DNA of 64,000 bases from Gemmatimonadota bacterium (lineage in GTDB: Bacteria; JAAXHH01), in contig JAPOZT010000026.1 in the NCBI GenBank assembly GCA_026705925.1, positions 1 to 64,000 on the forward strand. Reading direction: 5' to 3'. Both the position numbers and the translations under genes were made by a program. The notes under the pieces are model-generated. The model was not told the DNA's origin, made no database searches, and saw only the letters and a list, made by a program, of their open reading frames with translations. How positions within the stretch are numbered: position 1 is the stretch's first letter; the number at the start of each line of letters is the position of its first letter. Shown one piece after another: positions 8,144-59,853 of the stretch.

Positions 8144-8875
8144 TCACTCGTCCGGGATCTCCACGGGCGTCCGCCTGCCCACACTCGGCGGGCGGAGCAG
8201 GTCGCGCTGAATATCGGTGGCGGCCAGGGCGCGTACATCGTCCAGCCCGTCGGCGGAAACCCAGGCGGAATATCCGGGTGAAAACTTGTACAGCAGCGCG
8301 CGCCGCCGCTGGTCGGAAGTCCACGTGGTGGTGCCGTGGACCAGCGCTTCCGTGAAGATGAGCATGTCTCCCGCCATAAAGGAGGGGTTCGCAACCAGGT
8401 GGGAATCGACGGGCGGCCGGTACCGGAAGTTCGACTTGTGGCTGCCCGGTACGCAGATGAGCCCGCCGTCGCCCGGGTTGATGTCCTCGAGGGCGTACAT
8501 GACCACGATCAGTCCGTTATACATCTTGCCGTCGAACCACTGGTACTGGTGTTCGCCGTGATCGTGTCTCGGTCCGCCGTGCAGGTTGGGTTTTACGTGT
8601 CCCCGCTCCACAGTCAGCCGGTCCATTTGAATCCCGTAAGCGTGGTCCAGCCGCATCCATTCCCCGATCATCGTGCGGATGATACGCAGCGTTCCGGGAT
8701 GGGCCATGAGTTCCATGAACACCGGGTCGAGCGTGATAAACTGGAACTGGTGTGTCTCATCGGGGATGTGTTCGTCCAGGATCCCGTTCATATGGCCGAC
8801 CTGGTCACGGGTCAGCATGTCCTTGTAGACGATGTATCCGTTGAGGTCGAATTCGAAGATTTCGGCTTCAGTCAT
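8144..8875 (-). CDS. PhyH-family Fe(II)/2-oxoglutarate oxygenase with HxG in place of HxD
   Basis: A 243-residue phytanoyl-CoA dioxygenase-fold protein. The double-stranded beta-helix features are present: CVPGSHK (about 143-149), the distal iron His at 180 in GDMLIFTEALVHG, and an arginine cluster soon after for the 2-oxoglutarate carboxylate. The proximal motif, expected as HxD, reads H99-G-G101, so the carboxylate ligand is missing, as in Fe/2OG halogenases. An alternative ligand in the following RHDHGEH loop cannot be excluded. It is a tandem paralogue of the next gene (both start MTEAEIFEFDLNGYI), beginning 9 nt after that gene's stop. The start was set at the ATG matching the paralogue. 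Confidence 0.88.
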   Translation of the reverse strand: MTEAEIFEFDLNGYIVYKDMLTRDQVGHMNGILDEHIPDETHQFQFITLDPVFMELMAHPGTLRIIRTMIGEWMRLDHAYGIQMDRLTVERGHVKPNLHGGPRHDHGEHQYQWFDGKMYNGLIVVMYALEDINPGDGGLICVPGSHKSNFRYRPPVDSHLVANPSFMAGDMLIFTEALVHGTTTWTSDQRRRALLYKFSPGYSAWVSADGLDDVRALAATDIQRDLLRPPSVGRRTPVEIPDE

Positions 8876-8883
8876 GGGTCTTC

Positions 8884-9615
8884 TCACACTTCCGGTATTT
8901 CCACCGGAGTCCGGCCCTCGATACTGGGCGCCCTGAGCAGGTCGCGCTGCAGGTCATTGGCGGCGAGTGCCTGCAGCTTTTCCCAGTTCTCGGGTATGGC
9001 CCACGTGGAATGCCCTGGCGAGTATTTGTACAGCAGGGAGCGCCGCTTGTCCGTCGAGGTCCACGTGTCGGTCCCGTGGATCAGTGCTTCCGTGAAGATC
9101 AGCATATCGCCGGCCTTGAAGGTTGGATTCACGACGAAATGCGAGTCCACCTCCGGCTTGAAGTCCATGTTGGTCTTGTGGCTCCCCGGCACGCAGATGA
9201 AGCCGCCGTCGCCGGGGTTGACGTCTTTGAGGGCATACATGACGACGGTCAGTCCGTTGTACATCTTTCCGTTGAACCACTGGTAATGGTGCTCGCCGTT
9301 GTCTTCCAGCGGACCGCCGTGGAGGTTTGGCCTTACATCGCCCCGCTCCTCGGAGCGCGTATCCATCTGGAGCCCGTAAGCGTGGTCCAGGCGCATCCAT
9401 CCACCGATCATCGTCTCGAGGATGTTCAACGTCCGGGGCAGGGCCATGACCTCCATGAACACGGGGTCGAGTTCCAGGAAACGGAAATTGTAGGAATCAT
9501 CGTTGAGGTGCTGATCGAGCACCCCGTTCATATGGTCGACCTGTTCCGGGGTCAGTACATCCCGGTACATGATGTAACCGTTGAGGTCGAATTCGAAGAT
9601 CTCGGCTTCGGTCAT
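8884..9615 (-). CDS. PhyH-family Fe(II)/2-oxoglutarate oxygenase with HxG in place of HxD (tandem paralogue)
   Basis: A 243-residue protein of the same length and layout as its downstream neighbour; the two align without gaps over their whole length. The beta-helix core includes CVPGSHKTN (about 142-150) and the distal His180 in GDMLIFTEALIHG. The proximal iron motif is H99-G-G101, within NLHGGPLEDNGEHHYQW, instead of HxD. Both copies keep the same substitution, so it predates the duplication and has been retained, which argues against random decay. A GGAGCC stretch lies close upstream of the ATG. It sits in the middle of the six-gene minus-strand run. Confidence 0.88.
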   Translation of the reverse strand: MTEAEIFEFDLNGYIMYRDVLTPEQVDHMNGVLDQHLNDDSYNFRFLELDPVFMEVMALPRTLNILETMIGGWMRLDHAYGLQMDTRSEERGDVRPNLHGGPLEDNGEHHYQWFNGKMYNGLTVVMYALKDVNPGDGGFICVPGSHKTNMDFKPEVDSHFVVNPTFKAGDMLIFTEALIHGTDTWTSTDKRRSLLYKYSPGHSTWAIPENWEKLQALAANDLQRDLLRAPSIEGRTPVEIPEV

Positions 9616-9647
9616 GGATGGCTCCTGAACCCTCGTCTAACGCTGAC

Positions 9648-10682
9648 TTACTCCAGGTCCGCCGGTTGACTTCCTTCCGCCACTGCCAGGGGCGACCCCA
9701 CGGCGCCGACGGGCAGTGTGTTCCTCCGTTTCCATCGCCTCCAATCCCTTGCCCTCTTTTTCTTCATCTGTCTTTCCGCCCATGCTTCCAGGGGTACGTC
9801 GCCGGGCTCCGGACGCCAGTACCTGGAGGCCGGATGGGCAGGGTCGCCGTCCTGGTAGACTACGCCGTCTTCCGTGGTGTTGGAGCCCAGAAGCTGCCGC
9901 TGGACCGGCGTGCAACGGGCCAGCAGTCCGGCGTCCTGGCGGTCGTAATCCCCGGGGCGCGCCCAGCGGTGGTTGTATCCGTAGTAGAGACACTTGCGCG
10001 TGTGGGCAGACAGGTTGGGCGTCAGGCAGTGCCACAGGGCCGTGCGCCAGACCATGGCCGTCCCGGGACGGACGTTCACCTCGACGATGTCTTCCGGGTC
10101 GATGTGGTAATCCGGATCATGAATCAGTCTGGGCGAACGGAGGTGGCTGCCGCGCACGACGCAGATTGCGCCACTGTTGTGCTCGGTGAGATCGGTGAGG
10201 TAGTACCCGACCTTGACCTCCAGGAACGGGACGATGCCGTTCGTGACCGGGTAGCCGTAGTTGGGTGCGTCGGAGTGCCAGGGGAAGAATCCGCCCGCCG
10301 CCCCCAACTCACCCTCCACGTGGTCTTTCATGGGCGGCCGAACATCCACGTGAGACGTACGGATCTGGATGTTGACGCCCATGACGTCCACGACAAGCGG
10401 CAGGATCTTCCGGTACTCGATCAACGCGAAGAGTTCGTCGTGGTGGGCCAGGGCATTACGGATCTGGTACGCATCCTCCGCAGAGGTACCATGGGCTTTT
10501 CGGTGTTTATCGTAAAGCGTGTCGACGACGTTGATCATCCGGTCGACGTGGTCCGGCGAGAGGGCGTCCTCGATCAGGATGAAGCCGTCTTCGTCGAACT
10601 GTCGCCGTTGCGTTTCCGTAATGGCGAGATAGGGTTCGGGTTCGAACGGCCGGGGTGGACCCTGGGCGACTGGGATAGACAT
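9648..10682 (-). CDS. PhyH-family Fe(II)/2-oxoglutarate dioxygenase (canonical HxD)
   Basis: A 344-residue PhyH-fold enzyme with an intact facial triad: H136-S-D138 in FPWHSDAPN and the distal His218 in TALWHCLTPN, with VVRGSHLRS between them. It would hydroxylate an unidentified substrate with O2 and 2-oxoglutarate. The ATG at 10682 has an AGGAG about 7 nt upstream; the frame is open to 11228, but that part overlaps the enolase-superfamily gene and is not conserved-looking. The C-terminus (about 300-344) is rich in basic residues (RQMKKKRARDWRRWKRR). It is divergent from the HxG pair downstream and probably has a different role in the same operon. Confidence 0.87.
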   Translation of the reverse strand: MSIPVAQGPPRPFEPEPYLAITETQRRQFDEDGFILIEDALSPDHVDRMINVVDTLYDKHRKAHGTSAEDAYQIRNALAHHDELFALIEYRKILPLVVDVMGVNIQIRTSHVDVRPPMKDHVEGELGAAGGFFPWHSDAPNYGYPVTNGIVPFLEVKVGYYLTDLTEHNSGAICVVRGSHLRSPRLIHDPDYHIDPEDIVEVNVRPGTAMVWRTALWHCLTPNLSAHTRKCLYYGYNHRWARPGDYDRQDAGLLARCTPVQRQLLGSNTTEDGVVYQDGDPAHPASRYWRPEPGDVPLEAWAERQMKKKRARDWRRWKRRNTLPVGAVGSPLAVAEGSQPADLE

Positions 10683-10717
10683 TATTGACTCCTTCCGTCC
10701 TTCCGTCCCTCGGACGA

Positions 10718-11977
10718 TCAACTCCACAGGCGGTCGTGAGACCGTAACTCGTTCCACTCGTCGGTGGGTTCGAAGTAACCGGGATCCTTCTCGCTGATGT
10801 GCGCGCGTACGGCCTCTTCGTTCAGTTCGATCCCCAGGCCGGGCGCGTCCGGCACCGTCATGTATCCGTTCTGGACCGACGGCTTCGGCAGACCGGTCAC
10901 CAGGTCGTCCCACCAGGGCACGTCCACGTGGTGGTGCTCCAGGGCGATGAAGTTCTCCGTGGCGGCGGCGCAGTGCACGCTGGCCATCTGGGCAACGGGC
11001 ATGGCGGACATGTGCAGGGCCATGGAGATGCCGTATTCCTGGGCCGTATCGCCGATCTTCTTGGTTTCCAGTATCCCGCCCGAAGTGGCCAGGTCGGGAT
11101 GGCACACCGAAATGGCTTGGTGCTCGAACAGGTCCTTGAATCCTTCCCGAAGATAGATGTCCTCGCCGGTGCAGATCGGCGTGTCGCAGGCGTCGCGCAG
11201 GCGGACGTACTGCTCGGTGAACTGCCACGGGACCATGTCCTCGTACCAGGCCAGGTTGTACCGGTCCAGCGCCTTGCCCAGTCGGATGCAGTCCTCCACG
11301 CCAATGTGTCCGAAGTGATCAACGGCCAGCGGGATCTCGTAACCGACGATGTCGCGGACCCCGGCGACATAGTCCGACAGCAGGCCGATGCCTTTGTCCG
11401 TCAGCCTGATGCCCGTGAAGGGGTGCATGATGTGCAAGGTGTCCAGCATCCCGGAAGGGGCCGACAGGGTACCGGGAATGTTCTTCAATAAGCCGATGCC
11501 CACGTCCATTTTCAGGAAGGTGAACCCCCGGTCCATGCGTTCCTTCAGGCGGCGCCCCATCTCTTCGGCATCCGGGGTCGATGTCGTATCGCAGTAGATA
11601 CGCACGCGGTCTCGGAATTTGCCGCCCGCCAATTGATAGGCCGGTACGCCGTAGGCCTTGCCGGCGAGGTCCATGAGGGCCATCTCGATGGCGCAGACGC
11701 CGCCGGCCTGCCGGGCGTGGTGGCCGAACTGCCGGATCTTTCGGAAGATCCGGTCGACATCGCATGGGTTCTCGCCCAGGATGCGCGACTTGAGGGTCAG
11801 GGCGTAGGTCTTGCTGGCGCCGTCCCGCACCTCTCCCAGGCCGTGGATGTCCTGGTTGGTATCGAGCCTGATGATCGTTGATGCGCCGATCGTCACGGTG
11901 CGCATGTCGGTGATGCGCAACTCACCAGGGCGGGAAGCGGTGTTTAAATTGCTGGCTATTTCCGCTGTTGCTGGCAC
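10718..11977 (-). CDS. Mandelate racemase/muconate lactonizing-like enzyme (enolase superfamily)
   Basis: A 419-residue enolase-superfamily member, probably an acid-sugar dehydratase or racemase that abstracts a proton alpha to a carboxylate using Mg2+. The capping domain is followed by the barrel, with likely metal ligands in LAVDHFGH (Asp), WYEDM (Glu) and TGEDIYL (Glu), and a candidate base in ALHMSAMP. The lysine in FTFLKMDVG is in the usual place for a barrel lysine, but the second lysine of a KxK pair is replaced by Asp. It lies between two PhyH genes with gaps of about 35-40 nt. A second enolase-superfamily gene at 59850-61040 is also directly downstream of a PhyH gene, so the pairing recurs. 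Confidence 0.88.
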   Translation of the reverse strand: MPATAEIASNLNTASRPGELRITDMRTVTIGASTIIRLDTNQDIHGLGEVRDGASKTYALTLKSRILGENPCDVDRIFRKIRQFGHHARQAGGVCAIEMALMDLAGKAYGVPAYQLAGGKFRDRVRIYCDTTSTPDAEEMGRRLKERMDRGFTFLKMDVGIGLLKNIPGTLSAPSGMLDTLHIMHPFTGIRLTDKGIGLLSDYVAGVRDIVGYEIPLAVDHFGHIGVEDCIRLGKALDRYNLAWYEDMVPWQFTEQYVRLRDACDTPICTGEDIYLREGFKDLFEHQAISVCHPDLATSGGILETKKIGDTAQEYGISMALHMSAMPVAQMASVHCAAATENFIALEHHHVDVPWWDDLVTGLPKPSVQNGYMTVPDAPGLGIELNEEAVRAHISEKDPGYFEPTDEWNELRSHDRLWS

Positions 11978-12016
11978 GGATTCAACCCGTTTCTCGGCGT
12001 TACCCGTTTCTCGACG

Positions 12017-12874
12017 TTACCCGCCGCTCGGAGTTTCCTCGGACCAGTGCGCCGGCGGTTCGACCGGACCATGATCCCACACGGTGGGGAAGTAATGGCC
12101 GGTCAGCAGATTGCCGGGATCGACGTCGACCCGGCGCTCCATGATATGGGATCTGGAGGGTTCGTACCTTGTCCATCCCGGCATGTAGTGCACCGCGATG
12201 GCGGGCCGGCCGTTTTCGGACGGATTGGGCGGGCTGCCGTGCCAGGTCAGGCAGTGGTGGAACATGCACTCGCCCTTCTTCACCTCGCAGGGGACGATTT
12301 CCACCTCCTCGCTTCCCGGGATGAGGGACCGGTCGGGATCGGGGGTGAAACCGTCTTCGTTCGTGCCGATCGTACCGCCCTTGTGGGGTCCCCAGTGATG
12401 GCTGCGCGGCACCATGCGCATGCAGCCGTTCTCCACGGTGGCGTCGTCCAGGGCCACCCAGGCGCTCACCAGGTCCGCAGGCTGGATGATCGGCCAGTAG
12501 GGATGGTCCTGGTGCCAGTCGGTCGCCCCGCCGCGCCGGGGCGGTTTGTACTGGATCTGGTCGTGCCACACCCGCAGCACGTCGGTGCCGATCAGGTCGC
12601 AGGCCATCCGGCATATTTCCGGGTGGTAGAGGTGGCCGCGGAATCCATCGTCCGCCTGCCAGGTATTGACCACCTGGATCACCACGTCCCTTTCCGCCTC
12701 CAGATCCTCGCCGGCTATGTTTCGTACCGTCTCGGCCCTGCCGCGGGACGTACCCGCGATGACGGTCATCAGGCGGTCCCGCAACGCGTCTGCCTCTTCA
12801 TCGGTATAGACTCGGCCGACGTTGAGAAAACCGACGTCTCTGAACTGGTCGATCTGCGCCTGGGTCAGGGACAC
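12017..12874 (-). CDS. PhyH-family Fe(II)/2-oxoglutarate dioxygenase (canonical HxD)
   Basis: A 285-residue PhyH enzyme with complete iron-binding residues: H121-Q-D123 in WHQDHPYW and the distal His212 in LTWHGSPPN; MVPRSHHWG provides the usual turn after the third strand. The GTG at 12874 (VSLTQAQIDQF) was chosen as start because AGGAG lies about 7 nt upstream and homologues start at this helix; the frame extends to 12976 with no ribosome-binding site there. It is the first gene of the six-gene minus-strand run, divergent from the Gfo/Idh/MocA gene, so the 200-nt gap 12875-13076 should hold promoters for both directions. Confidence 0.87.
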   Translation of the reverse strand: MSLTQAQIDQFRDVGFLNVGRVYTDEEADALRDRLMTVIAGTSRGRAETVRNIAGEDLEAERDVVIQVVNTWQADDGFRGHLYHPEICRMACDLIGTDVLRVWHDQIQYKPPRRGGATDWHQDHPYWPIIQPADLVSAWVALDDATVENGCMRMVPRSHHWGPHKGGTIGTNEDGFTPDPDRSLIPGSEEVEIVPCEVKKGECMFHHCLTWHGSPPNPSENGRPAIAVHYMPGWTRYEPSRSHIMERRVDVDPGNLLTGHYFPTVWDHGPVEPPAHWSEETPSGG

Positions 12875-13076
12875 GCTTCGACTCCTTGTTCTTGCGGTTT
12901 TGCCAGGCTTCCGGTTCGTGGAAAGATTGGAGCGAACGTAGCGGAAACCGCGTCTTGTGTCAAGGCCGATGTCCACCCGAATTCGCTTGACGATGCCACG
13001 ACCGTTATTTACTTCCCGGAAACACCGGCACGATACGATTCACCGTGTTCAGAGGAACCCCGAAGAGGTACCCCAA

Positions 13077-14072
13077 ATGGCGATACGCATGGCACAGTAC
13101 GGCACCGGTCACGGGCATGCCGCCGGCAAGCTTCAATCCATGTTGACCCATCCCGATGTCGAGTGCGTCGGAGTCTATGAGCCTGACGCGGAGCGAAGGT
13201 CCACCCTTGAGCATGCCGATGGGCCCTATACAGACGTACGATGGTTCGACCGCGTGGAGGACATGTTGGGCGATCCGGCTGTCGTCGCCTTGGCTTCGGA
13301 AGGCCGCAATGACGAAAGCCTGGCCCAGACGGAGGAAATTGTCCGCGCCGGCAAGCATGCCTGGTACGACAAGCCCGCCGGCGACGACTGGACGGCCTGG
13401 CAGCGGGTGGTCGGCCTGGCCGAAGAGGCGAACCTGCAGGTGCAGATGGGATACATGTTCCGGTATCACGACGGATTCGGCAAGATCGCAGACTGGGCCA
13501 GGTCCGGCATGCTGGGCCGCGTGTTTTCGATCCGGGCCCACATGTCGACCAACGTCCCCGTTTCATCCCGCGAAGTGATCAGCGCCCACCGGGGAGGCAT
13601 TTTCTACGACCTGGCCGGCCACATGCTCGACCAGGTGGTCTGGATCCTGGGGCGCCCGTCCAGGGTGACTGCGTTCCTGCGCAACGAGACCGGGGAAGTC
13701 CCCGCCTTCGCAGATAACGGCCTGGGGGTGTTTGAATACGAGCACGCCATGGCCACCGTGGATATCGCCGCCATGGAACCGTCGCCGCCCGCCCGCCGCT
13801 ACGAGGTATACGGCACGGAGGGCAGCGCCATCCTCATCGAACCCTTCGAACCGGGTACGGAAATCAGGCTGGTCCTGACCGAAGCCCGGGACGGCTATCC
13901 CGCGGGCGAATCCCGGGTACCCGTGGCGGGCCGCAGCCGCCAGGCGCTGTATGACCTCGAACTGGCGTCCTTCCTGAAGACGATCTCCGGTGAACAGCCG
14001 CCGGACCGTTCCCTTTCCCACGAGCTGCTCGTGCAGGAGACCTTGCTCCGCGCGACACGGGGCCTGTCGTGA
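13077..14072 (+). CDS. Gfo/Idh/MocA-family oxidoreductase
   Basis: A 331-residue NAD(P)-dependent dehydrogenase of the glucose-fructose oxidoreductase/inositol dehydrogenase family. The N-terminal Rossmann domain opens with AQYGTGHGHAAGKL, and YDKPAGDDW is the family's EKP motif with Asp for Glu. The C-terminal alpha/beta domain begins near GYMFRYHDGF. The ATG at 13077 follows GAAGAGG by about 8 nt. The stop overlaps the start of the next gene (GTGA), so the two are translationally coupled, suggesting sequential oxidation of a sugar-, inositol- or amine-type compound. Divergent from the PhyH/enolase cluster; both transcription units may serve one pathway. Confidence 0.88.
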   Translation: MAIRMAQYGTGHGHAAGKLQSMLTHPDVECVGVYEPDAERRSTLEHADGPYTDVRWFDRVEDMLGDPAVVALASEGRNDESLAQTEEIVRAGKHAWYDKPAGDDWTAWQRVVGLAEEANLQVQMGYMFRYHDGFGKIADWARSGMLGRVFSIRAHMSTNVPVSSREVISAHRGGIFYDLAGHMLDQVVWILGRPSRVTAFLRNETGEVPAFADNGLGVFEYEHAMATVDIAAMEPSPPARRYEVYGTEGSAILIEPFEPGTEIRLVLTEARDGYPAGESRVPVAGRSRQALYDLELASFLKTISGEQPPDRSLSHELLVQETLLRATRGLS

Positions 14073-16709: not shown

Positions 16710-16762
16710 TGTCGTGTATACCATAGGGCGTTCGGCACGTTGCCTGAGGAAGCTTTTTCGAT

Positions 16763-17950: not shown

Positions 17951-17973
17951 GAATCCCGCTCCCGGGTTCCGGC

Positions 17974-18975: not shown

Positions 18976-19257
18976 GGCATGCTCCGGGCGCTGCGGTTCG
19001 GCCTTCATAAATGGTAATCGCGACGGACCCATGACGATCAAGTAGTTCCGCCGCGTTCTTTCAAATAAAGATCAACCGGTATGACCTGTCAAGGGCGGGG
19101 AACTGACGGTCCAAACCCCTTGACATTCAGGTTGCGGTCTGTTAGTTGACCGGTGCCCGGAACGGGCTGGTATGTCCTGATTGTAACTTCCCGGCTGGAA
19201 CGTCCCGGTTGGCCTGGCCCGGTCGGAATGTCATTACGGGTGAAAGGACCTGCTGCC

Positions 19258-20097
19258 ATGGCAGTGGATGACCGCACCGGTGTGTGTGGGCTTGATTCGC
19301 CGTACCCTCTGTCCGGTGAAGATGTGAGACAATACCGTGAAAACGGCCACGCGCATCTCCGGGACGTATGTACGCGGAATGAGATTGCCGAGTACCGCGA
19401 GGTGTTGAAGTCGGTCACCTCCGAACGCTTCGCCGGTACAAGCGAGATGAGCGACCGGCCGGAGGACGATTTCTCCCGCGTATTCATGCAGACGTTCAAC
19501 CTGAGGGAGGCGGACGAGCGCGCGGCCCGGTTCATCCAGTCATTCCGATTCGGGAAGATTGCGGCCGACCTCATGGGCGTGGATGCGGTCCGCATTTACT
19601 ACGACAAGGCCATGTTCAAAGAACCCGAAAGCTGGATCACACCCTGGCACCAGGATGGTCCGCACTGGCCGCTGTGTTCGGATCACGTCCTTACCATGTG
19701 GATCCCCCTCGTGGACGTCACCATCGACATGGGGCCGCCTCGCTTCGCGAGCGGTACCCACAGGGAAAGAGTCTTGGGCCCCAGGGGGATACACCGCGAA
19801 TCGGAGACGTTTTTCAAGGACTACATCCGCGCGAGTCGGGTTCCGGTCGTGGAGGAAGAAATCCCAGCAGGAGACGCGACCCTGCACAGCCACTGGGTGG
19901 TTCATGGCGCGCGGGCCAACACGTCCGGCCGCGTCCGAGAAGCGCTGGGCATCACATTCTACGAGGACGGTATCCCCATCGATGATTCCGCGTGCAGCGC
20001 GGAGAACCGGCCGGTCATCGATGCGAACCTGGGAAATCGGCGTCCCGGCCAGCGGGCCGATCATCCGCGCAACCAGGTCGTGTTCGCCCGGTCCTGA
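19258..20097 (+). CDS. PhyH-family Fe(II)/2-oxoglutarate dioxygenase (canonical HxD)
   Basis: A 279-residue PhyH enzyme with an intact site: H131-Q-D133 in PWHQDGPHW and the distal His216 in HWVVHGARAN, followed by SGRVREALG with an arginine placed to bind 2-oxoglutarate. The ATG at 19258 follows AAAGGA by about 10 nt; upstream in-frame starts (19153, 19228) have weaker signals. It precedes a NUDIX hydrolase with an 11-nt gap, so both are probably on one message. The substrate is unknown; the HQDGPHW motif suggests a small-molecule hydroxylase rather than phytanoyl-CoA itself. Confidence 0.86.
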   Translation: MAVDDRTGVCGLDSPYPLSGEDVRQYRENGHAHLRDVCTRNEIAEYREVLKSVTSERFAGTSEMSDRPEDDFSRVFMQTFNLREADERAARFIQSFRFGKIAADLMGVDAVRIYYDKAMFKEPESWITPWHQDGPHWPLCSDHVLTMWIPLVDVTIDMGPPRFASGTHRERVLGPRGIHRESETFFKDYIRASRVPVVEEEIPAGDATLHSHWVVHGARANTSGRVREALGITFYEDGIPIDDSACSAENRPVIDANLGNRRPGQRADHPRNQVVFARS

Positions 20098-20108
20098 ACG
20101 GTGCGTTG

Positions 20109-25717: not shown

Positions 25718-27673
25718 TCAGTCCTCTTCCGCCAGCCTGTGCGTGCCGGATTCCCGGTTGGTGACGCCCAGGTCGCAGAAATAGTCCAGCAACGCGGTGG
25801 CGTGCGCCCGGGAAATGCCCAGGTGGCTCCGGAACTCGGACGCGCGCACGGTGCCGTGGGATTCCAGGTAGGCCACCAGGCGCTTCCTGACCGATTCGAG
25901 CGCCCGGTGATGCATGATCTGCCGGTCCGCGAACTCGGCAAAGACCGCTTGATCCATGGCATATCCGGCCATGTTTCTAATCATATCCGCGTCCGCTTTC
26001 AGATCAACCTGTAAATCCTCAGTAATCATCGACCGGTCTTCCATGACCTGCGGCAGGTCGTTCATGGTGAAAACGGCGGGAGGTTCGGCGTCACCCAGTT
26101 CCTCGAATGACTCGAGTATGCGTTTTTCCCGGTCGTTCAGCTCGACCGTGTGGGTGGCCAGCCGGACCGACCGGCCGGTCAGCACGATCCGGCCCTCCGC
26201 GTCGAGGTCGTTCAACAGCCCGTCATAGACGGCGTCGGCAGGTTCCCAGGACAGCTGCTGCCTCGGGGCTTCCTTGGGCAGCATATCCTTCAGTCGCTGG
26301 ACGCGGTGCATTTTCTTAAGCAGGTTGACCAGCTCGTCCTTCAGGCCCGTGTATCCTTCCCGGTGCAGAAACCGGTGGTCCGGGAAACGGATGAGTTCGC
26401 CCTTTTCCACCAGCCGTGTCAGGCCCTGTTTCAGCACTTCGGCATTCAGGTTCGTGGATCGCACCAGATCCTGTATCGATTTCTGCCGCTGCGCGCCGTG
26501 CGCGTGATGCATGACCCGTTCGATCAGGACATCCGGCTCCGCGCCGGTCACCGCTTCCAGGTAGTCCAGCACGGGCTGGCGAAACCGGCGGTTCTTCCGG
26601 GGATAGACCTCCACGAACCGGCCGCCGCCGAGCAGCCGCATCGATGAGAATCCGCGGATGATGAAACGCTCGTTGCGTTCGGCCACGATGGGTTTCTCCA
26701 GGCGAAGCTGCACGTAACCGGTCTCACCCGGTGTGAGTTCGTCGCGGTCGAGCACGATCAGCCTGCCGATGGTCTCGCTCGTGCCCTTGTGCAGGCGAAT
26801 GCGCTGCCGGTTCTTCAGCGGCTCTTCCATGGACTCCAGGCAATGCAGCGTGGCATCGGTCATCGAGGTCGGGAGCAGGTATCCGGGCTCGCTCAGCTCA
26901 TCGCCCCGCTGAATGTCGGCCGTCTTGACATTCGAGACGTTCAGCGCGACCCGCTGTCCTTTGACGGCACGGTCCACGGTGTCGTTGTGGGTCTGCATGC
27001 CCCTGATCCGAAGCGGCGTCCCGGCCGGGAGCAGTTCCGCGTCCGAATCCCGCGACAGGCTTCCCGAAAGGACCGTGCCGGCAATGACCGTGCCAAAGCC
27101 TTTCATACTGAACACCCGGTCCACGGGCATGCGGAAGTATCCGGCGTCCTCCGCGACCGCCAGCCCGGCCAACCGGTCTTCGATGATCTCTTTCAGCCGG
27201 TCGATCCCCTGGCCCGATACCGATGAAACCCGGACGACCGGTGCGTCCTCGAGGAACGAGCCGTTCACGAGCGATTTCACGTCGTCCTCCACGAGCATCA
27301 GCCACTCTTCGTCGACAAGGTCGCATTTCGTCAGGACGACGATGCCCGCGCCGACCCCCATGTATCTCACCGTGCCCAGGTGTTCGACGGTCTGGGGCAT
27401 GACGCCCTCGTCGGCGGCCACGACGAAGAGGACGAGATGTATGCCGCTCACTCCGGCGACCATGGTCTTGAGGAAACGTTCGTGGCCCGGGACGTCGACG
27501 ATGGGGACTTCCCGCCCGTCGCTCAGGGACATGAAGGCGAAACCGAGGTCGATCGTCATGCCCCGGTCCCGTTCCTCCTTGAGGCGATCGGGATGAACGC
27601 CGGTCAGCGCTTCCACCAGGGCGCTCTTTCCGTGGTCGACGTGGCCGGCCGTGCCTATGGTGAGATGGGACAT
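25718..27673 (-). CDS. selB: Selenocysteine-specific translation elongation factor SelB
   Basis: A 651-residue SelB, the GTPase that delivers Sec-tRNA(Sec) to UGA codons marked by a SECIS hairpin. The GTPase domain has GHVDHGKS (residues 10-17), a switch with TIDLGFA, DVPGHE, and TKCD. EF-Tu-like domains 2 and 3 follow (VDRVFSMKGFGTVIAGTV and later), and the C-terminal part (about 370-651) is made of winged-helix modules that bind the SECIS, ending GISRAHATALLDYFCDLG. The ATG at 27673 starts MSHLTIGTAGH, typical of SelB. It is followed by tRNA-Sec on the same strand, supporting a selB-selC unit. Confidence 0.96.
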   Translation of the reverse strand: MSHLTIGTAGHVDHGKSALVEALTGVHPDRLKEERDRGMTIDLGFAFMSLSDGREVPIVDVPGHERFLKTMVAGVSGIHLVLFVVAADEGVMPQTVEHLGTVRYMGVGAGIVVLTKCDLVDEEWLMLVEDDVKSLVNGSFLEDAPVVRVSSVSGQGIDRLKEIIEDRLAGLAVAEDAGYFRMPVDRVFSMKGFGTVIAGTVLSGSLSRDSDAELLPAGTPLRIRGMQTHNDTVDRAVKGQRVALNVSNVKTADIQRGDELSEPGYLLPTSMTDATLHCLESMEEPLKNRQRIRLHKGTSETIGRLIVLDRDELTPGETGYVQLRLEKPIVAERNERFIIRGFSSMRLLGGGRFVEVYPRKNRRFRQPVLDYLEAVTGAEPDVLIERVMHHAHGAQRQKSIQDLVRSTNLNAEVLKQGLTRLVEKGELIRFPDHRFLHREGYTGLKDELVNLLKKMHRVQRLKDMLPKEAPRQQLSWEPADAVYDGLLNDLDAEGRIVLTGRSVRLATHTVELNDREKRILESFEELGDAEPPAVFTMNDLPQVMEDRSMITEDLQVDLKADADMIRNMAGYAMDQAVFAEFADRQIMHHRALESVRKRLVAYLESHGTVRASEFRSHLGISRAHATALLDYFCDLGVTNRESGTHRLAEED

Positions 27674-27763
27674 GGTTGCTTGAGGATCGTGGTTGTGACT
27701 GCAGTGTGAGTATGCGCTCACCGGGATACAGCCATGGTGCGGGCCCGGAACAGGCGTGTGGAT

Positions 27764-37675: not shown

Positions 37676-38503
37676 TCAGCCCGCAGGCGCATCCTGCCTG
37701 AAGCTGCGCACCATCTCGATATAGTCGCGGGAGAATAACTGGTCCGGACGCTTGTCGTAGCTGAAGATCGCGATGATCCGGGGCCGTTTCGTCGGACCGA
37801 CCGGTGACACGCGGTGCAGGGCGTATTTACCGTTGAACAGCACCAGCGTCCCCGGCCGGATGTCCGTGCGGCGAACGCGTTTTCCAGGCGCTTCGAAAAC
37901 GGCGCGCACGTCGTCGTAATGCTCGTCGTGGTCCGCTCTGAGGTCCGGAACGTATTCGAATGCCCCACCGGAATCGGGCGCCTGGATCAACAGCGTGATA
38001 TTGCCGTTATTGGAATCGAAGTGCCACCCGTTGCTGTCTCCCTCGTGCGCGATTTGCAACGTCAGGGCGAGATGGGGACAGGCGCTCGTGTACAGGTTTT
38101 CGAACCCGAGCACCCTTCGCACGAATTCGGTCAGGGCCGGCCAGAGGAATACGCTGCGCACGAGACTGTCGTTGGGGATCTGGTAGTTGAGCACCTGCCG
38201 GTAGCGGTTTACATGCTCAATGGTTCGGGGATGGCCGGCGGGCCACGTCCGGTCTACGTAGTCGTTTCCCTCGTAGCTGGTGCGCGGCCGGTCGTAGTAG
38301 TATCCGAGCGGGATCAAGGCGCTGGTTTCCCGCACCATGCCGGCCAGCGCCCGAGGATGCAGAAAACCCTCGAGTACGCAGATGGACTGCTTCTCGAGCC
38401 CGGATTGGCAAGATGTGAGGAATGCCTGGCCGTCGGGACTGTCGAGGTTCTCCAACGGGTACCGGCCGACATCCACCAGCGTGGCGGGACTAGTGGTTTT
38501 CAT
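37676..38503 (-). CDS. BesD/HalD-like Fe(II)/2-oxoglutarate oxygenase (amino-acid hydroxylase type, HxD intact)
   Basis: A 275-residue protein of the BesD/HalD family, whose characterised members chlorinate free amino acids such as lysine or hydroxylate them. Family features visible: VDVGRYPLENLDSP at the N-terminus, ACPHLALTLQIAHEGD, NGWHFDSNNGNITLLIQ and GGAFEYVPDLR, the distal His230 in LFNGKYALHRVSPV. The proximal motif is H161-F-D163; in the halogenases this Asp is Gly. Retention of Asp predicts hydroxylation rather than halogenation. The ATG at 38503 gives the usual N-terminus; the open frame continues to 38848 inside the next gene and is not used. Downstream is an AGCS amino-acid symporter. 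Confidence 0.85.
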   Translation of the reverse strand: MKTTSPATLVDVGRYPLENLDSPDGQAFLTSCQSGLEKQSICVLEGFLHPRALAGMVRETSALIPLGYYYDRPRTSYEGNDYVDRTWPAGHPRTIEHVNRYRQVLNYQIPNDSLVRSVFLWPALTEFVRRVLGFENLYTSACPHLALTLQIAHEGDSNGWHFDSNNGNITLLIQAPDSGGAFEYVPDLRADHDEHYDDVRAVFEAPGKRVRRTDIRPGTLVLFNGKYALHRVSPVGPTKRPRIIAIFSYDKRPDQLFSRDYIEMVRSFRQDAPAG

Positions 38504-38555
38504 GGTCCTGGTCCTCCCGGTCGTGTCCGCCGGGTACGGGGCGCCCGAATGTGCT

Positions 38556-39416
38556 TCACAGACGGCGGATCTCCCAGAGTTCCACCACCATTTCCGACGG
38601 ATAACCGATGGGATCGAAATCGTCCGTCTCCCTCGCGTCGTATCCCACTTCGGCGAACAGGTTCTCGATGGTCCGGGAAGAATGGTGTTGCGCTTCCCCG
38701 ATCGTGTGGTAGAGGTAAACCGCGGAGGGCAGGATGACGGGATAGCCCATCTCGTACAGCGCGTAGGCCAGCTCGCCTTTTCCCAGACGTGAGACGATGT
38801 CGTCGGCATGCTGGATGATTTGCGTATCGTCCTGCTTGACGTCCACATCGAATCTGAAGGCGAAATGACTGCGGAGATATCCCTGTTCGTGCAGGAAACG
38901 GCCGATTCGGTCGATGGCGACGGACAACCGTTCGAGCTGACTCGGTGTGTTCAGGCCGTCGGGCAGGTCCAGCGCGAGGTGACGATTCAGGCGGTCGAAG
39001 AACAACTTGCCCACCCGGATGGTAAACAGCCGGCGTTCCCGTTCCAGTCCCTCATCGAAGCGTTCCGGATGCCTTTCGATGTGCCGGAAAGCCGATCGGT
39101 AAAAGGCATAGGAAAGGGCGTCGAATTCGCCCGACTGCAGCGCCGTTTCACCGTCCGTGTGAACGAAGGCTTCCACCAACTCTCGCCGGGCCGGCCTGTC
39201 GTACACCGTCCTGATGTACTTTTCAGCATCTTCCCGAACATCGTTCAGCGCACCGCAGTCGGGTTCCAGCGCGCCGCTGTCGGGTACCAGCGCTTTCCAT
39301 TCACTGACGATGGCTTCGGACATGAACGCGGTGAACGCGCTGCCTACCGGCCACCAGGCGGCATACTCGGGGAACGGCCTTTCACCGACGACCTGTTCGA
39401 GTGTTTTTACCGTCAT
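38556..39416 (-). CDS. Protein of unknown function (286 residues) next to the BesD/HalD-like oxygenase
   Basis: A soluble, mostly helical, acidic protein I do not recognise. Segments that look conserved-type are FPEYAAWWPVGSAFTAF at the N-terminus, LFTIRVGKLFFDRLNRHLALDL, and ELAYALYEMGYPVILPSAVYLYHTIGE toward the end; no signal peptide, transmembrane helix or known metal-binding motif is obvious. A duplicated 21-bp unit at 39246-39293 encodes ALVPDSGALEPDCGAL. It lies 40 nt below the TPR lipoprotein gene and 52 nt above the Fe/2OG oxygenase gene, in the same run as an amino-acid symporter, so a role in processing the same amino acid, or carrying it, is a reasonable guess. Confidence 0.7.
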   Translation of the reverse strand: MTVKTLEQVVGERPFPEYAAWWPVGSAFTAFMSEAIVSEWKALVPDSGALEPDCGALNDVREDAEKYIRTVYDRPARRELVEAFVHTDGETALQSGEFDALSYAFYRSAFRHIERHPERFDEGLERERRLFTIRVGKLFFDRLNRHLALDLPDGLNTPSQLERLSVAIDRIGRFLHEQGYLRSHFAFRFDVDVKQDDTQIIQHADDIVSRLGKGELAYALYEMGYPVILPSAVYLYHTIGEAQHHSSRTIENLFAEVGYDARETDDFDPIGYPSEMVVELWEIRRL

Positions 39417-50909: not shown

Positions 50910-51009
50910 GTACCTTGCCTTTGCGACCTTCCGTGCGGTGCCGGTCAGGCCCGCTGTCGGGGCCCTGCGATGGCGGGTCAGGCTCGACACCGCGTCCGTG
51001 CGGTGCGTG

Positions 51010-51816
51010 TCATACGGTTAACGTGACCACATCCCTCTGGGCCACGTCCTTGACCTCCGTGAAGGAGGCCAGGGCCATCAGTTCGTTGGTCTCGGGCGAA
51101 AGCCGGGCCTTCAGCGTGTCCGTCGTCCACGGTCCGCCGCCGCTGTACTGGGGCGCGTAACGCAGCACGAGCACGATACGCTTCCGATCGGTCGGCTTCC
51201 ACCGGAGAGTACCGTGCGTGAGCAACTCGGATATGATCACCGCGTCGCCCGCCCTGGGCGTGACGTTGATCGTGCCGGGCGGCGCATCGTCTTCCAGGTC
51301 GCCCCCGTCGAAGACCGTATCGGGTCGGTCGAAATTGCACTTGTGGGACCCGGGTACGACCACGAGCCCGCCGTCGCCGGGATTCACGTCGGTAAGATAG
51401 ATGAATACGACGAAATCATCGCAGTAGATGCGGCCGTCCCGGCATTCGTAACGTGTACTCTGCCAACCGTAGGCCTCGCGCGCACAGTGGAGCGATCCAG
51501 GATCGACGACACCTCCGGGCTGGTTTACGAGCATGGACCCCCGGACGAAACGGGGTTTGCCGGACGTGAACTCCTTTATAATGGGCCAGTAGCTCGGTTG
51601 GAAGACCAGCCGCTCCAGTGCCTTGTCGAAGGCGAATCCGTTGTCGTAAATACGGCCATCCCTGCTTCCAAAGTCCGGCGGGAGATCTTCGGCGGGCGTC
51701 TGTATATACCGCTCCGCGGCGTCAAGTGCCCCGGCGAGCGCCGGTTCCCCGAGGGCGCCTTCCAGGTGCAGAAAGCCGGTCAGGTCGAACAGGTACCTTT
51801 GCGTTTCGGTCATCAT
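51010..51816 (-). CDS. PhyH-family Fe(II)/2-oxoglutarate oxygenase with HxA in place of HxD
   Basis: A 268-residue PhyH-fold protein. The distal His201 in ISELLTHGTLRW, VVVPGSHKCNF and the R..R following it are present, but the proximal motif is H110-C-A112 in SLHCAREAYGW; the carboxylate position carries Ala, exactly as in SyrB2-type halogenases. GDGGLVVVPGSHK and the HGT...W end relate it to the HxG pair at 8144-9615. It follows the glycerate 2-kinase gene by 24 nt on the same strand. Two adjacent start codons (51816, 51813) are possible. Confidence 0.86.
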   Translation of the reverse strand: MMTETQRYLFDLTGFLHLEGALGEPALAGALDAAERYIQTPAEDLPPDFGSRDGRIYDNGFAFDKALERLVFQPSYWPIIKEFTSGKPRFVRGSMLVNQPGGVVDPGSLHCAREAYGWQSTRYECRDGRIYCDDFVVFIYLTDVNPGDGGLVVVPGSHKCNFDRPDTVFDGGDLEDDAPPGTINVTPRAGDAVIISELLTHGTLRWKPTDRKRIVLVLRYAPQYSGGGPWTTDTLKARLSPETNELMALASFTEVKDVAQRDVVTLTV

Positions 51817-51840
51817 GGTGGATTCCAGTTTTTGGCGTCC

Positions 51841-53169: not shown

Positions 53170-53271
53170 GTCCTGTAGTCGTGGAAAGCGCTGCGGGCTT
53201 CGGATCATGCAAAACGGGCGCACCGCCCGCCGGCCGGCACGCCCATTCGACAAGCCTGCTGTTCCGTTGTC

Positions 53272-55885: not shown

Positions 55886-57099
55886 ATCACGCCCTGGTCC
55901 TGCTGCTCGACCGGGCCCTCACCCATGTAGGTGAACTTCTGCACGCGCTTGCCTTCGTAGGTCTCCGTGGTGTAGATGTTTCCCTTCGAATCGGTCGCGA
56001 TGCTGTGGGTGCCGAAGAACTGGCCCGGCTGGCGGCCGCCGTCTCCGAACGTGGTCAGCACTTCCATCGTCTCCCGCAACAGCACGTACACCTTCATGTT
56101 CTGGCCGTCCGCCACGTACAGGTATTTCTGGTCCGCATCCTTCGAAAAGGCGACGTCCCAGGTCGACCCGGCGCCCAGCGTGTTGCCGGAGAGGACTTTC
56201 TCCATCACGAAGGTTCCGTCCGTCCGGAAAACCTGGATACGGTTGTTGGGACGGTCGCAGACGTATACGTGACCGTCGTTCGAGGGATCGGCCGCATGGA
56301 CGGGATTGCGGAATTGCTGGGCCGGCGGCGCTTCGGGATCGTATCTCCCTATATTGGCGTCATCCGGCTCGTTGCCGTAGGCGCCCCAGTACCGCTTCAG
56401 GGCCCCGGTCTCGATGTCGAGGACCGCGACGCGCTTGTTCAGGTAACCGTCGGCCACATAGGCTTCGTTCGTGGAGGCATCGAAGGAGATCTTGGCCACA
56501 CGACCGAAATTCCCTGGATCCATGCTGTTGCCGCTCCACGCCGGATCGGCCTCGTCGAAGCCATCGGCCCTTCGTGCGCCCGGTTCGCCGAACTGCTTCA
56601 GGAAGGTGCCGTCCTGGGCGAAAACCAGGATGTGGGCGTCGTCGCCCCCGTTGCCGCCGATCCAGAGATTACCCATCGGGTCGACGGTGATCCCGTGATT
56701 CGAACCCGGCCAGTCGTATCCTTCTCCCGGTCCGCCCCAATGGTTCAACAGATCGCCCTCGGGACTGAACTGGAGTACCGGCGGGGCGGGAATGCAGCAT
56801 TCGGCCACGGGCGGGTCTTGCGCGGCGCCCAGTTCCGTGCTCGGGTTGCCGTTTCCGCGGTGTATGATCCAGATGTTGTCGTTGGCGTCGACGGTTACGC
56901 CGATGGCGGAACCCAGGATCCAGTGGTTGGGCAGCGGCTTGGGCCACAGGGGGTCCACCTCGAACATCGGCGCCATCACCGCATCGGCGTCAGCCGTCTG
57001 CTCGGCCACTTCCATGTCCGCACACGCGACCGCCAGAAACGCTATTCCTGCCGCGGTCAGGGCGGCCGTGGCCATGGGTATGAAGGACCTTCGAATCAT
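55864..57099 (-). CDS. Six-bladed beta-propeller (NHL-repeat) lipoprotein
   Basis: A 411-residue protein with a lipoprotein signal (MIRRSFIPMATAALTAAGIAFLAVAC, lipobox AVAC at C26) and repeated NHL-type blades (GITVDPMGNLWIGGNGGDD, YVCDRPNNRIQVFRTDG, SIATDSKGNIYTTETYEGKRVQKF). Proteins of this shape in the peptidyl-alpha-hydroxyglycine lyase or SMP-30/NHL groups are exported hydrolases or binding proteins, and a copper- or calcium-binding role is sometimes assumed. The ATG has AGGA upstream. Overlaps the HupE/UreJ start by 22 nt. Confidence 0.88.
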   Translation of the reverse strand: MIRRSFIPMATAALTAAGIAFLAVACADMEVAEQTADADAVMAPMFEVDPLWPKPLPNHWILGSAIGVTVDANDNIWIIHRGNGNPSTELGAAQDPPVAECCIPAPPVLQFSPEGDLLNHWGGPGEGYDWPGSNHGITVDPMGNLWIGGNGGDDAHILVFAQDGTFLKQFGEPGARRADGFDEADPAWSGNSMDPGNFGRVAKISFDASTNEAYVADGYLNKRVAVLDIETGALKRYWGAYGNEPDDANIGRYDPEAPPAQQFRNPVHAADPSNDGHVYVCDRPNNRIQVFRTDGTFVMEKVLSGNTLGAGSTWDVAFSKDADQKYLYVADGQNMKVYVLLRETMEVLTTFGDGGRQPGQFFGTHSIATDSKGNIYTTETYEGKRVQKFTYMGEGPVEQQDQGVIWPSASR

Positions 57100-57364
57100 G
57101 ATTCCTCCCGGGTATCTCCTGCGCTCATTCCGCGTTACGCCAGCCCACGCCCTTCATCGGTTATTCGCTTGAAGTCCGGCCGCATGGCCGGCGCGATACG
57201 ACGGGCGGTCTGGTATGGCGGCAGTCTGCCTGCAGGCGAAGATGGAAAGTTCGTACCTTTCACGGTCTGCATCGGTTGTCGGTATAGGGCGAAGTTACCC
57301 CGTGCCCCAAGGGTGGTCAAGCGAATATTCGCCGATTGCGATCGCGGGGCCGGTCATTTATAGA

Positions 57365-57393
57365 TCGACAAACACGCGGCGGGATTCTATAAT
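57365..57393 (+). promoter_or_regulatory. Predicted sigma-70-type promoter before the aminotransferase gene
   Basis: TCGACA (57365-57370; one mismatch to TTGACA), a 17-nt spacer, and a perfect TATAAT (57388-57393). The expected transcription start near 57400 makes GTG 57398 an unlikely start and favours an internal ATG for the gene. Confidence 0.65.
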
Positions 57394-57433
57394 TTAAGTG
57401 ATCCTGAAAATGCAACCCATCGGAACCGGAACC

Positions 57434-58942
57434 ATGCACGCAAAAGCGCCCTGGGACATGTCGGTCAACCGCAGGATACTCGAAATGGAGTACGCCGTAC
57501 GGGGACCGATTCCCCAACGGGCGGCCGAACTGAAGCAACGGGGAAAACGCATCATCCCGTGCAACCTCGGCAACCCCCAGGCGCTTGGCCAGCAGCCCAT
57601 CTCCTTTTACCGGGAGGTGCTGAGCCTGGTCGAACATCCCGTTCGTATCGAACGCGAGCGGCGACTCAAAGCGTTGTTTAACGGCGGCGCCCTGGACGGA
57701 CCAGGCAGATTGGGTGGACCAGGCGGATTGGGACCGGACGGACCGGGCGGACTGGAACAGGACGACTTCCACTCCGACTACGTGCTCGATCTCAGTGAAC
57801 GCTACCTTGCGCAGATGGAGACCGGCATGGGCGCTTACTCGGACAGCAGCGGACCGCGGTTCATCCGGGAAGCCGTGGCGGATTTCATAGACCGCAGGGA
57901 CGGTGCGGACGATGCGGACCGCGGCACCGTTCCCCGTTCCGACCCGGACCAGGTATTCATCACCAACGGCGCCAGCGAAGCCGTGCGGTACGTCATCGAC
58001 CTGTTGATCGACGACGAATCGGACGGCATCATGATCCCCATTCCCCAGTATCCCCTGTACTCGGCGGCCATCAAGCGTTGCGGCGGCGTGCAGGTCGACT
58101 ATTTCCTCGATGAGGAGTCGGGTTGGGCCCTGGACCGGGACCTGCTGGAATCTTCCCTGGAAGCCGCACGGGGGCGCGGCGTGTCCGTCAAGGCCATCGT
58201 GGTCATCAACCCGGGCAACCCGACCGGCGCGGTGCTGGGCGAAGAGACCGTCAGAGAGGTGGTCGCCTTTGCCGGCGACAACGGCCTGGCCATCATCGCC
58301 GACGAGGTCTACCAGGAGAACGTCTACGGCGGGGACGCGGGGTTCGTATCCATCGCCCGTGTGCTGGGACGAAGCGGTGTGCCGCTGTTCAGCGTGCACA
58401 GCACCTCGAAGGGCTACTACGGCGAGTGCGGCCATCGGGGCGGCTATCTCGAGATCAGGAACGCGCCGCGTGTTCGGAATACCGAACTGTCGTTTACCGA
58501 CCTCGTGCTCAAGCAGGCGTCGGTGAACATCTGTTCGAACACGGTCGGGCAGCTGATGATGTACCTGCTCGTCAATCCGCCGCCCGAGAACGCCGAACCC
58601 TATCGCCGCTTCACGAATGAGCGCAGGACGATCCTCGAAGACCTCCACGAAAAGGCGGTCATGATCAGGTCGGGATTCGATCAGATGGAAGGGGTGTCCT
58701 GTTTCGGGCGAACCGGGGCGATGTACCTCTTCCCCCGGCTGGACCGGCTGCCGGAAGGAACGAACGACTTCGATTACTGCATGGCACTCCTGGAGCGGAC
58801 CGGACTGGTCACGGTCAACGGCGAGGGATTCGGGCAGCGGCCGGGCACCAGTCATCTGAGGATCGCGTTCCTGCCGCCCCGGGAGGTGATCGAGGAAGTC
58901 CTTCCGAAGTGGATCGCGTTCCACAACGCCTATGTAAACTGA
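57434..58942 (+). CDS. Aminotransferase class I/II (alanine aminotransferase-like)
   Basis: A 502-residue fold-type I aminotransferase resembling alanine aminotransferases, which interconvert alanine/2-oxoglutarate and pyruvate/glutamate. Signatures: YAVRGPIPQRAAEL and IPCNLGNPQALGQ at the N-terminus, ITNGASEAVRYVIDLLI, VINPGNPTGAVLGEE, ADEVYQENVY, and the PLP lysine in HSTSKGYYGECGHRGGY. A repeated insert (DGPGRLGGPGGLGPDGPGG, about 57690-57760) lies between conserved regions. GTG 57398 and ATG 57410 are alternative starts; I prefer ATG 57434 because a promoter is immediately upstream. A PhyH gene follows 29 nt downstream. Confidence 0.9.
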   Translation: MHAKAPWDMSVNRRILEMEYAVRGPIPQRAAELKQRGKRIIPCNLGNPQALGQQPISFYREVLSLVEHPVRIERERRLKALFNGGALDGPGRLGGPGGLGPDGPGGLEQDDFHSDYVLDLSERYLAQMETGMGAYSDSSGPRFIREAVADFIDRRDGADDADRGTVPRSDPDQVFITNGASEAVRYVIDLLIDDESDGIMIPIPQYPLYSAAIKRCGGVQVDYFLDEESGWALDRDLLESSLEAARGRGVSVKAIVVINPGNPTGAVLGEETVREVVAFAGDNGLAIIADEVYQENVYGGDAGFVSIARVLGRSGVPLFSVHSTSKGYYGECGHRGGYLEIRNAPRVRNTELSFTDLVLKQASVNICSNTVGQLMMYLLVNPPPENAEPYRRFTNERRTILEDLHEKAVMIRSGFDQMEGVSCFGRTGAMYLFPRLDRLPEGTNDFDYCMALLERTGLVTVNGEGFGQRPGTSHLRIAFLPPREVIEEVLPKWIAFHNAYVN

Positions 58943-58971
58943 CGGGTCGGGTTAATTGACGGGCGGGTTAC

Positions 58972-59853
58972 ATGCTTACGAATAAAGAGAAGTGGCTTTT
59001 CGATCTGCACGGTTATCTCGTCGTGCGCCAGGTCGTCACGTCCGAGGACCTTGATCGCATGATCGCGCGGTGCGACGAATGGCACGGGATGGAAGAGGAA
59101 GAGCTTCCGCCGCCGCTCTGTTCCTATGAGGATCCCGGGAAAAACCCCACGGCCGCGCGGGCCATTCTCCATGCCGAGTATGCCGACCCGGTCTTTGACC
59201 GGCTCGTGCTGAACCTGCCGGTCATGCGCCTGGTGCTCGCCCTGACGAGGGAGCGGCCCCAGCACCTGCTGTCGGCCCTCACAGTGAACCTGCCGGACAG
59301 CGACGAGATCACGCTGCACAACGGCGCTTCCGGGGCGTGGAGGAATCCGGCCAACGACTACCAGGCCGCGGACGGCGAAGTGTTCGCCACCTTCATCAAC
59401 GTGGCCATTTCCCTGGTTGACGTGCCCGAAGGGGCCGGATTCGTGTGCATTCCCGGCAGCCACAAGACCTATTTCGAACGGCCGGAACTCATCGACATCC
59501 GCTCAGGCCCGCCGACGGTCGTCAACGTGCCCATAAACGCGGGGGACGCCGTCGTATTTACCGAAGCCCTCTGCCACGGCGCGCTGCCCTGGCCCTTGCG
59601 CGATCCGCCGCGGCGCACCATGTTCCAAAGGTACTGCACGTCCTACGCGTCCTGGACACCCGGCGCGGGTCCCATCGAGGAGTACCGGCACCTGCTGTCT
59701 GACGGCGTTTGCGAAATGAAACGCCAGGGCGGATTCCAGGGACCGAAGGGCATCGTCGAACGCCTGCTGGACGAAATGACCGCCTGGGAGGCAGCCGGCC
59801 GGCCGGCGGGATGGGAGCGCCGGTTGCAACAGTCCACAGGGAGTCCTGCATGA
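58972..59853 (+). CDS. PhyH-family Fe(II)/2-oxoglutarate oxygenase with HxG in place of HxD
   Basis: A 293-residue PhyH-fold protein. It has CIPGSHKTY, the distal His202 in FTEALCHGALPW (sharing FTEAL.HG with the pair at 8144-9615) and arginines after it, but the proximal motif is H116-N-G118 in TLHNGASGAW. The carboxylate is missing as in halogenases. Its stop overlaps the start of the next gene (ATGA), an enolase-superfamily enzyme. Together with the aminotransferase upstream, this forms an apparent operon. Confidence 0.86.
   Translation: MLTNKEKWLFDLHGYLVVRQVVTSEDLDRMIARCDEWHGMEEEELPPPLCSYEDPGKNPTAARAILHAEYADPVFDRLVLNLPVMRLVLALTRERPQHLLSALTVNLPDSDEITLHNGASGAWRNPANDYQAADGEVFATFINVAISLVDVPEGAGFVCIPGSHKTYFERPELIDIRSGPPTVVNVPINAGDAVVFTEALCHGALPWPLRDPPRRTMFQRYCTSYASWTPGAGPIEEYRHLLSDGVCEMKRQGGFQGPKGIVERLLDEMTAWEAAGRPAGWERRLQQSTGSPA

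Follow-up and report, generated by a model that had tools for sequence, protein, structure and literature searches.

HygX-type Fe(II)/2-oxoglutarate oxygenases lacking the HxD carboxylate in a Gemmatimonadota genome, and a candidate glutamate in its place

Introduction

Four genes in a stretch of DNA from a Gemmatimonadota bacterium encode Fe(II)/2-oxoglutarate (2OG) oxygenases that carry Gly or Ala where the HxD motif (x, any residue) has its iron-binding acid. Does the vacant site bind chloride, as in the halogenase SyrB2, or is a carboxylate supplied from another part of the protein? The stretch, referred to below as the window, comprises positions 1 to 64,000 of contig JAPOZT010000026.1 (assembly GCA_026705925.1) and is part of contig 5 of a genome of 3.77 Mb in 38 contigs. 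A sequence-only reading had offered two answers, candidate halogenases or a hydroxylase clade using a different ligand set. HxG/HxA serves as a filter for finding Fe/2OG halogenases, for instance in an AdaV-based search described in an excerpt of PMC11186838. As judged from sequence comparisons, the four proteins are on balance best explained as HygX-type Fe(II)/2OG oxygenases of the PhyH family, in which a Glu four residues before the distal His would replace the HxD carboxylate, either directly or through water.

The four acid-lacking oxygenases

The first protein, P0003 (8144..8887, minus strand), may start at 8887 or, equally possibly, at the ATG at 8875. Its H-G-G codons at the HxD position lie at 8573..8581 (minus strand; residues 103-105 in the 247-aa frame), and the segment E-A-L-V-H, containing the candidate substitute carboxylate E180 and the distal His H184, is encoded at 8336..8350 (minus strand); counted from the ATG at 8875, the motif reads H99-G-G101 and the distal His is H180. 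P0004 (8884..9615, minus strand) is a tandem copy 68% identical to P0003, with H99-G-G101 at 9313..9321 and E176-x3-H180, ending in the distal His, at 9076..9090 (both minus strand). P0005 (51010..51816, minus strand) carries H110-C-A112 at 51481..51489 and E197-x3-H201 at 51214..51228 (both minus strand; distal His, H201). P0002 (58972..59853) lies on the plus strand, unlike the other three of the four genes, with H116-N-G118 at 59317..59325 and E198-x3-H202 at 59563..59577 (both plus strand; distal His, H202).

Re-reading of the residues bore out the motifs first reported for these genes (HGG, HGG, HCA and HNG, each with an intact distal His) and the HxD kept by the remaining four oxygenases of the window (HSD at 9648, HQD at 12017, HQD at 19153 and HFD at 37676). 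Both metal-site His residues, the distal Arg and the GSHK turn are retained in all four acid-lacking proteins. The Gly or Ala truly occupies the HxD position, as the proximal His residues of the four proteins, of the HxD proteins in the window and of HygX fall into one column of a 112-row alignment. The claim that the acid loss in the tandem pair does not reflect decay also held: when the pair was aligned with 14 relatives from other genomes (65-89% identical to P0003), all 16 rows read HGG. In Gemmatimonadetes bacterium SB0665_bin_8, a locus is 100% identical across the P0003 protein.

Relationship to HygX and distribution of the clade

Seven of the eight window oxygenases scored above the cut-off of PF05721 (PhyH), the exception being the 37676 protein; the four acid-lacking proteins reached 51.6, 50.1, 42.4 and 46 bits (curated cut-off 22). 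The SyrB2-type trait, HxA or HxG replacing HxD, is present in all four. None of them matched the Pfam families WelO5 or HalD at E 0.1. The cut-off of 226.3 bits for TIGR01762, the NCBIfam family of SyrB2-type chlorinating enzymes, was not reached by P0003 (12.7 bits) or P0004 (15.9 bits), and P0005 and P0002 were absent among the matches listed. The sole window protein in a halogenase-named family, the 37676 protein (Pfam HalD, Halogenase D; 53.2 bits, cut-off 26), bears the hydroxylase motif HFD.

Single-sequence phmmer searches against the PDB, performed with P0003, P0005 and P0002 and not with P0004, returned HygX chains as the top matches (2e-10, 2e-14 and 1.1e-8, respectively). A profile of 15 rows, built from clade members of the window's own genome, matched HygX at 7.4e-31, followed by SnoK (2.9e-19), EctD (1.6e-17), PHYH (5.1e-15) and SyrB2 (4.8e-14). 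When an AlphaFold model of P0003 of modest quality (see below) was used for a fold search, ranks 1-15 were all occupied by HygX entries (Ni+2OG, Fe, apo and Ni+2OG+hygromycin B), and SyrB2 took rank 37. The best match by both profile and fold is thus HygX, the hygromycin B oxygenase of Streptomyces hygroscopicus (PDB 4xc9; 4xca, with Ni and 2OG; 4xcb, with hygromycin B; 4zpi, with Fe). Its own sequence reads L-H-G-G at the HxD position (H102 and G104 in chain-sequence numbering) and N-E-A-L-M-H-G at the distal His (E202 and H206), and the HygX-type combination of HGG with E-x3-H is found in the window, although P0005 has HCA and P0002 HNG instead of HGG. The abstract of the HygX structure report (McCulloch, PNAS 2015) reportedly mentions variation in metal coordination in this enzyme. 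The likeness has its bounds: identity across the fold match is about 20-24%, and HygX belongs to an antibiotic cluster, whereas the window genes lie in apparently catabolic ones. EctD, PHYH and SnoK, which share the family, the fold, the two His residues and the Arg, all keep HxD, and EctD has S instead of E at the position four residues before the distal His in the alignment. Taken together, these comparisons make HygX-type homology of the four proteins almost certain. A close HygX relative was noted on a plasmid of Streptomyces sp. SAT1 (L281, 5992-6768), where it is part of a sugar-biosynthesis cluster and adjoins a gene predicted to encode APH(7'')-Ia; the cluster is therefore probably of the hygromycin type.

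Across the genome, 111 PhyH matches were found, 7 in the window and 104 outside. They comprise 96 proteins with HxD (one of them, L070, read as H-W-D by eye), 13 without the acid and 2 that could not be classified (L097, L114). The 13 acid-lacking proteins carry HxG (8), HxA (2), HGN, HGY and HVV (one each). In a tree of 107 PhyH proteins of this genome plus HygX, all 13 grouped with HygX and two HRD proteins (L092, L100) in one branch with a Shimodaira-Hasegawa-like approximate likelihood ratio test (SH-aLRT) support of 97. The tree was computed by a quick method after exclusion of four short fragments, and L070 is wrongly labelled as non-HxD in it. Because a single branch holds all 13, lack of the acid characterises that branch and is not scattered among enzymes. 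A family tree sorted by HxD state had been suggested as a check on the halogenase idea; it unites the acid-lacking proteins with HygX.

A HygX-like profile gave 20-51 matches per genome at 1e-15 in 16 genomes of the phylum, the HygX clade being conserved in 16 of 16. In the phylum of genome G054, which we guess to be Poribacteria, 54 of 58 genomes had a match at 1e-35; an expansion of PhyH proteins in Poribacteria is described in a portion of PMC3909097. No relative was found in viral contigs scanned with P0003, P0005 and P0002.

An acid preceding the distal histidine

Within the window's own genome, the residue four positions before the distal His is E in 12 and D in one of the 13 non-HxD proteins, as opposed to no E and three D among 94 readable HxD rows. 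The comparison was extended to the 16 genomes of the phylum, the phylum of G054, further loci and four plasmid records. Among 224 matches above 100 bits with both His residues, 185 lacked HxD and had the new acid, 29 had HxD/E without it, 7 had both and 3 neither. For residue counts, rows scoring below 60 bits and rows with under 180 filled columns were dropped and the remainder was thinned at 85% identity from 258 to 162 rows, to which HygX was added (163 rows). Twenty-six outgroup rows, some of which the clade profile had misaligned, were assigned to HxD by hand. The sample consists of best matches and picked members of few genomes and is therefore biased, not a random draw.

In this set, the acid of E-x3-H was present in 122 of 126 non-HxD rows (111 E, 11 D), in none of the 26 HxD outgroup rows and in none of the 4 HRD/HKD rows, which form a nested subclade. 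The figure of 122 is counted by residue; by alignment column it is 123, the L215 row being shifted. No other column held an acid in at least 90% of the non-HxD rows and none in the outgroup. The distal His is H in 124 of the 126 rows and the Arg that follows is invariant, while the third residue of the former HxD motif varies (G71 A17 S17 V6 N5 Y3 H3 W1 K1), and two rows have lost the proximal His. Metal-binding His residues are lost in L216, L219 and L259.

When the wide set was thinned at 62%, after exclusion of eleven long or degenerate rows, and a tree was computed without the trait columns, 54 family rows separated from 20 outgroup rows with a support of 97, and the HRD/HKD group fell inside the family. 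In this subclade, HxD is present and T or P stands four residues before the distal His, so that both sites show the state opposite to that of their neighbours.

Other acids were examined as ligands and set aside. An acid of the RHDHGEH loop, which the sequence-only reading had put forward as a substitute, does not stand, the loop being conserved solely within the family of the tandem pair. D14 and D130 (aligned numbering) are acidic in at least 90% of the non-HxD rows but are common to the HxD proteins, and D81 and D135 are enriched in the clade (0.73 and 0.81) but not near-universal.

In the mechanism that we propose, the third protein carboxylate would come from E180 of P0003, E176 of P0004, E197 of P0005 and E198 of P0002, bound directly or via water, and would thus be supplied by the segment leading into the distal His and not by the HxD loop. 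Fe(II) would be held by two His and the Glu, and 2OG would be chelated and anchored by the conserved Arg. An ordinary ferryl cycle could then follow, with activation of O2 together with 2OG and abstraction of hydrogen from a substrate C-H bond, leading to hydroxylation, demethylation or oxidative cyclisation and not to formation of a C-Cl bond. Based on the gene neighbours and on the fact that HygX acts on an aminoglycoside, we guess that the substrates are sugar or sugar-acid derivatives.

Several observations weigh against the Glu as a ligand. Independent exchanges are few (the wide tree requires at least 7 and 5 changes), and a paired sign test was non-significant and powerless (5 independent pairs, median p 0.5), so that conservation carries more of the argument than repeated exchange does. 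In the unthinned wide tree, the HygX branch falls on the outgroup side, albeit with very weak support (8). Four non-HxD rows are without the acid, with G in L215, L227 and L246 and P in L259, which has lost the proximal His as well; these four, together with L216 and L219, are possible non-catalytic paralogues. Conversely, both acids are present in 4 of 11 HxD/E rows of the HygX-like set (HGD, HGE, HAD, HHE), and a Glu four residues before the distal His accompanies an intact HxD in 5 of 5 TIGR01762-like proteins (L285-L289; F-[NT]-E-R-x-x-H). Across the whole of PhyH, a Glu at this position is hence not tied to loss of HxD and can have another role. The structure models also contribute little: the best model of P0003, obtained from 13 sequences in an alignment where the proximal His of P0005 is probably out of place, had a mean predicted local distance difference test (pLDDT) score of 65 and a predicted template modelling (pTM) score of 0.72, with pLDDT below 50 at residues 99-124 and 181-187, so that the active site is weakly modelled; a second model from 16 close sequences was worse (pLDDT 45), and two wider alignments (A4 and A5) were set aside as their HxD rows were misaligned. 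We place the chance that the Glu is a direct or water-bridged metal ligand slightly above even, and no higher because L284-L289 carry the Glu, five of them together with HxD.

Alternative explanations

The best-surviving alternative is that these proteins are two-His hydroxylases like human AspH, with water at the third site and the Glu acting in the second sphere or in substrate binding. In the part of PMC8252765 that describes it, AspH hydroxylates in a 2OG-dependent manner, has an HXG...H motif and uses His residues as its only two protein ligands; it thus resembles the window proteins as a working hydroxylase with HxG and two His, but belongs to another family of the superfamily and is likened here by description. 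Such a role for the Glu would agree with its coexistence with HxD in L285-L289 and the 4 of 11 HxD/E rows, and with L215, L227 and L246, which have both His residues and neither the HxD acid nor the Glu. It fits poorly with the near-invariance of the acid (122/126 against 0/26 outgroup rows) and with the loss of the Glu in the nested HRD/HKD subclade, precisely where the HxD acid exists. We consider this explanation tentative and rather less probable than not.

A halogenase function, in which chloride or bromide occupies the vacant third site (the arrangement of SyrB2 and BesD), is improbable. In its favour, the four proteins combine HxG/HxA with an intact distal His, the clade-profile search finds SyrB2 as a remote homologue, SyrB2 and CytC3 share the PhyH-type fold, and an excerpt of PMC8407142 reports Ala or Gly at this position in halogenases. 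The same excerpt gives the substrates of SyrB2 and CytC3 as amino acids tethered to carrier proteins. The match to SyrB2, however, is far weaker than that to HygX, and SyrB2 and CytC3 have Ser at the position four residues before the distal His (PDB alignment with L284), where the window proteins have Glu. The closest solved relative, HygX, shows the same HGG and is described, in the section of PMC8234114 concerned and in the titles of its PDB entries, as an oxygenase of an orthoester pathway. Moreover, the third motif residue is not kept small in the clade, with S, V, N, Y, H, W or K also found, which is unlike a chloride pocket. Prolyl 4-hydroxylase (P4H) variants with the Asp changed to Ala or Gly gained no halogenation according to a passage of PMC2767507; together with the hydroxylation by AspH with HXG, this makes a non-halogenating HxG enzyme plausible. 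Among 384 genomes, including the window's own, 5 had TIGR01762 matches at 1e-20 and none had a match over the cut-off. The best of these matches (L284:1195-2334, plus strand, genome G150) is SyrB2-like (1.1e-37) and carries HQA with, by eye, a Glu four residues before the distal His; it is a candidate halogenase or a candidate independent instance of the HxA plus Glu arrangement. Of the two answers offered at the outset, that of a hydroxylase clade with other ligands is therefore supported, HygX being nearest and the HxD position variable, and that of halogenases is not favoured; the four proteins are probably not halogenases.

That the four proteins are non-catalytic paralogues with a lost metal site is highly unlikely. 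His residues are lost in three family members outside the window (see above), but the four retain the two metal-site His, the distal Arg and the GSHK turn; the distal His is conserved in 124 of the 126 non-HxD rows and the Arg is invariant, and the clade persists in all 16 genomes of the phylum.

Implications

It is an even call whether a whole branch of Fe/2OG oxygenases, with tens of copies per genome in two bacterial phyla, has rebuilt its 2-His-1-carboxylate site, the Glu before the distal His taking over while the column of the HxD acid drifts. HxG/HxA would then be unsafe as a halogenase signature, and HxG with E-x3-H would mark a separate class. Should the Glu be the ligand, a two-part sequence test, covering the HxD position and the residue four before the distal His, could sort candidates prior to assay. 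A large, expanded branch passes the HxG/HxA filter and yet is better explained as HygX-type oxygenases. Since the nearest solved relative has the same gap and a near-universal acid elsewhere may fill it, the acid gap of the window enzymes should not be taken to indicate chlorination chemistry; the relocated carboxylate is put forward as a testable proposal. A literature search found no paper on the E-x3-H idea, which is no proof of its absence from print.

Gene neighbourhood and other features of the window

The P0003/P0004 pair lies in a conserved cluster (7.3-15.3 kb) that also includes a pair of HxD PhyH genes, genes for an enolase-superfamily protein and a creatininase, and a divergent MocA-type dehydrogenase gene. 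The creatininase-family gene (7293..8324, minus strand) has an open frame overlapping the P0003 gene at the latter's 3' end, and its own start may be later. The first HxD gene (9648..10661, minus strand; longer open frame to 11228) encodes a PhyH oxygenase with HSD and T four residues before the distal His, and the second (12017..12976, minus strand) one with HQD and C at that position; between them lies the enolase-superfamily (MR_MLE) gene (10718..11977, minus strand). The order of the cluster is retained in L001-L003 and L006 and partly in L004, L005, L007 and L012, and a Zixiibacteriota record (L008) has PhyH, enolase, PhyH and HxG protein in kept order. The 51010 gene is flanked by a glycolate-oxidase-like gene of the flavin adenine dinucleotide (FAD)/iron-sulfur (FeS) type and a glycerate-kinase-like (MOFRL) gene, and the 58972 gene adjoins another enolase-superfamily gene. 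An FAD-dependent oxidoreductase gene is likewise among the neighbours of the window oxygenases. All four acid-lacking genes apparently lie in catabolic clusters. No carrier-protein domains were reported in 30 neighbour proteins scanned at 1e-5, which represent only part of the open frames.

Two further oxygenases served as comparison proteins: a PhyH oxygenase (19153..20097, plus strand; the gene first placed at 19258) with HQD and the non-acidic H four residues before the distal His, and the HFD protein matching HalD (2OG oxygenase; 37676..38848, minus strand; start codon probably later), with K at this position. Elsewhere in the window, a large protein with POR and DUF6537 domains, presumably similar to indolepyruvate:ferredoxin oxidoreductase, is encoded at 705-4298 (minus strand), and a gene for a SelB-like elongation factor at 25718-27721 (minus strand) suggests the use of selenocysteine in this genome.

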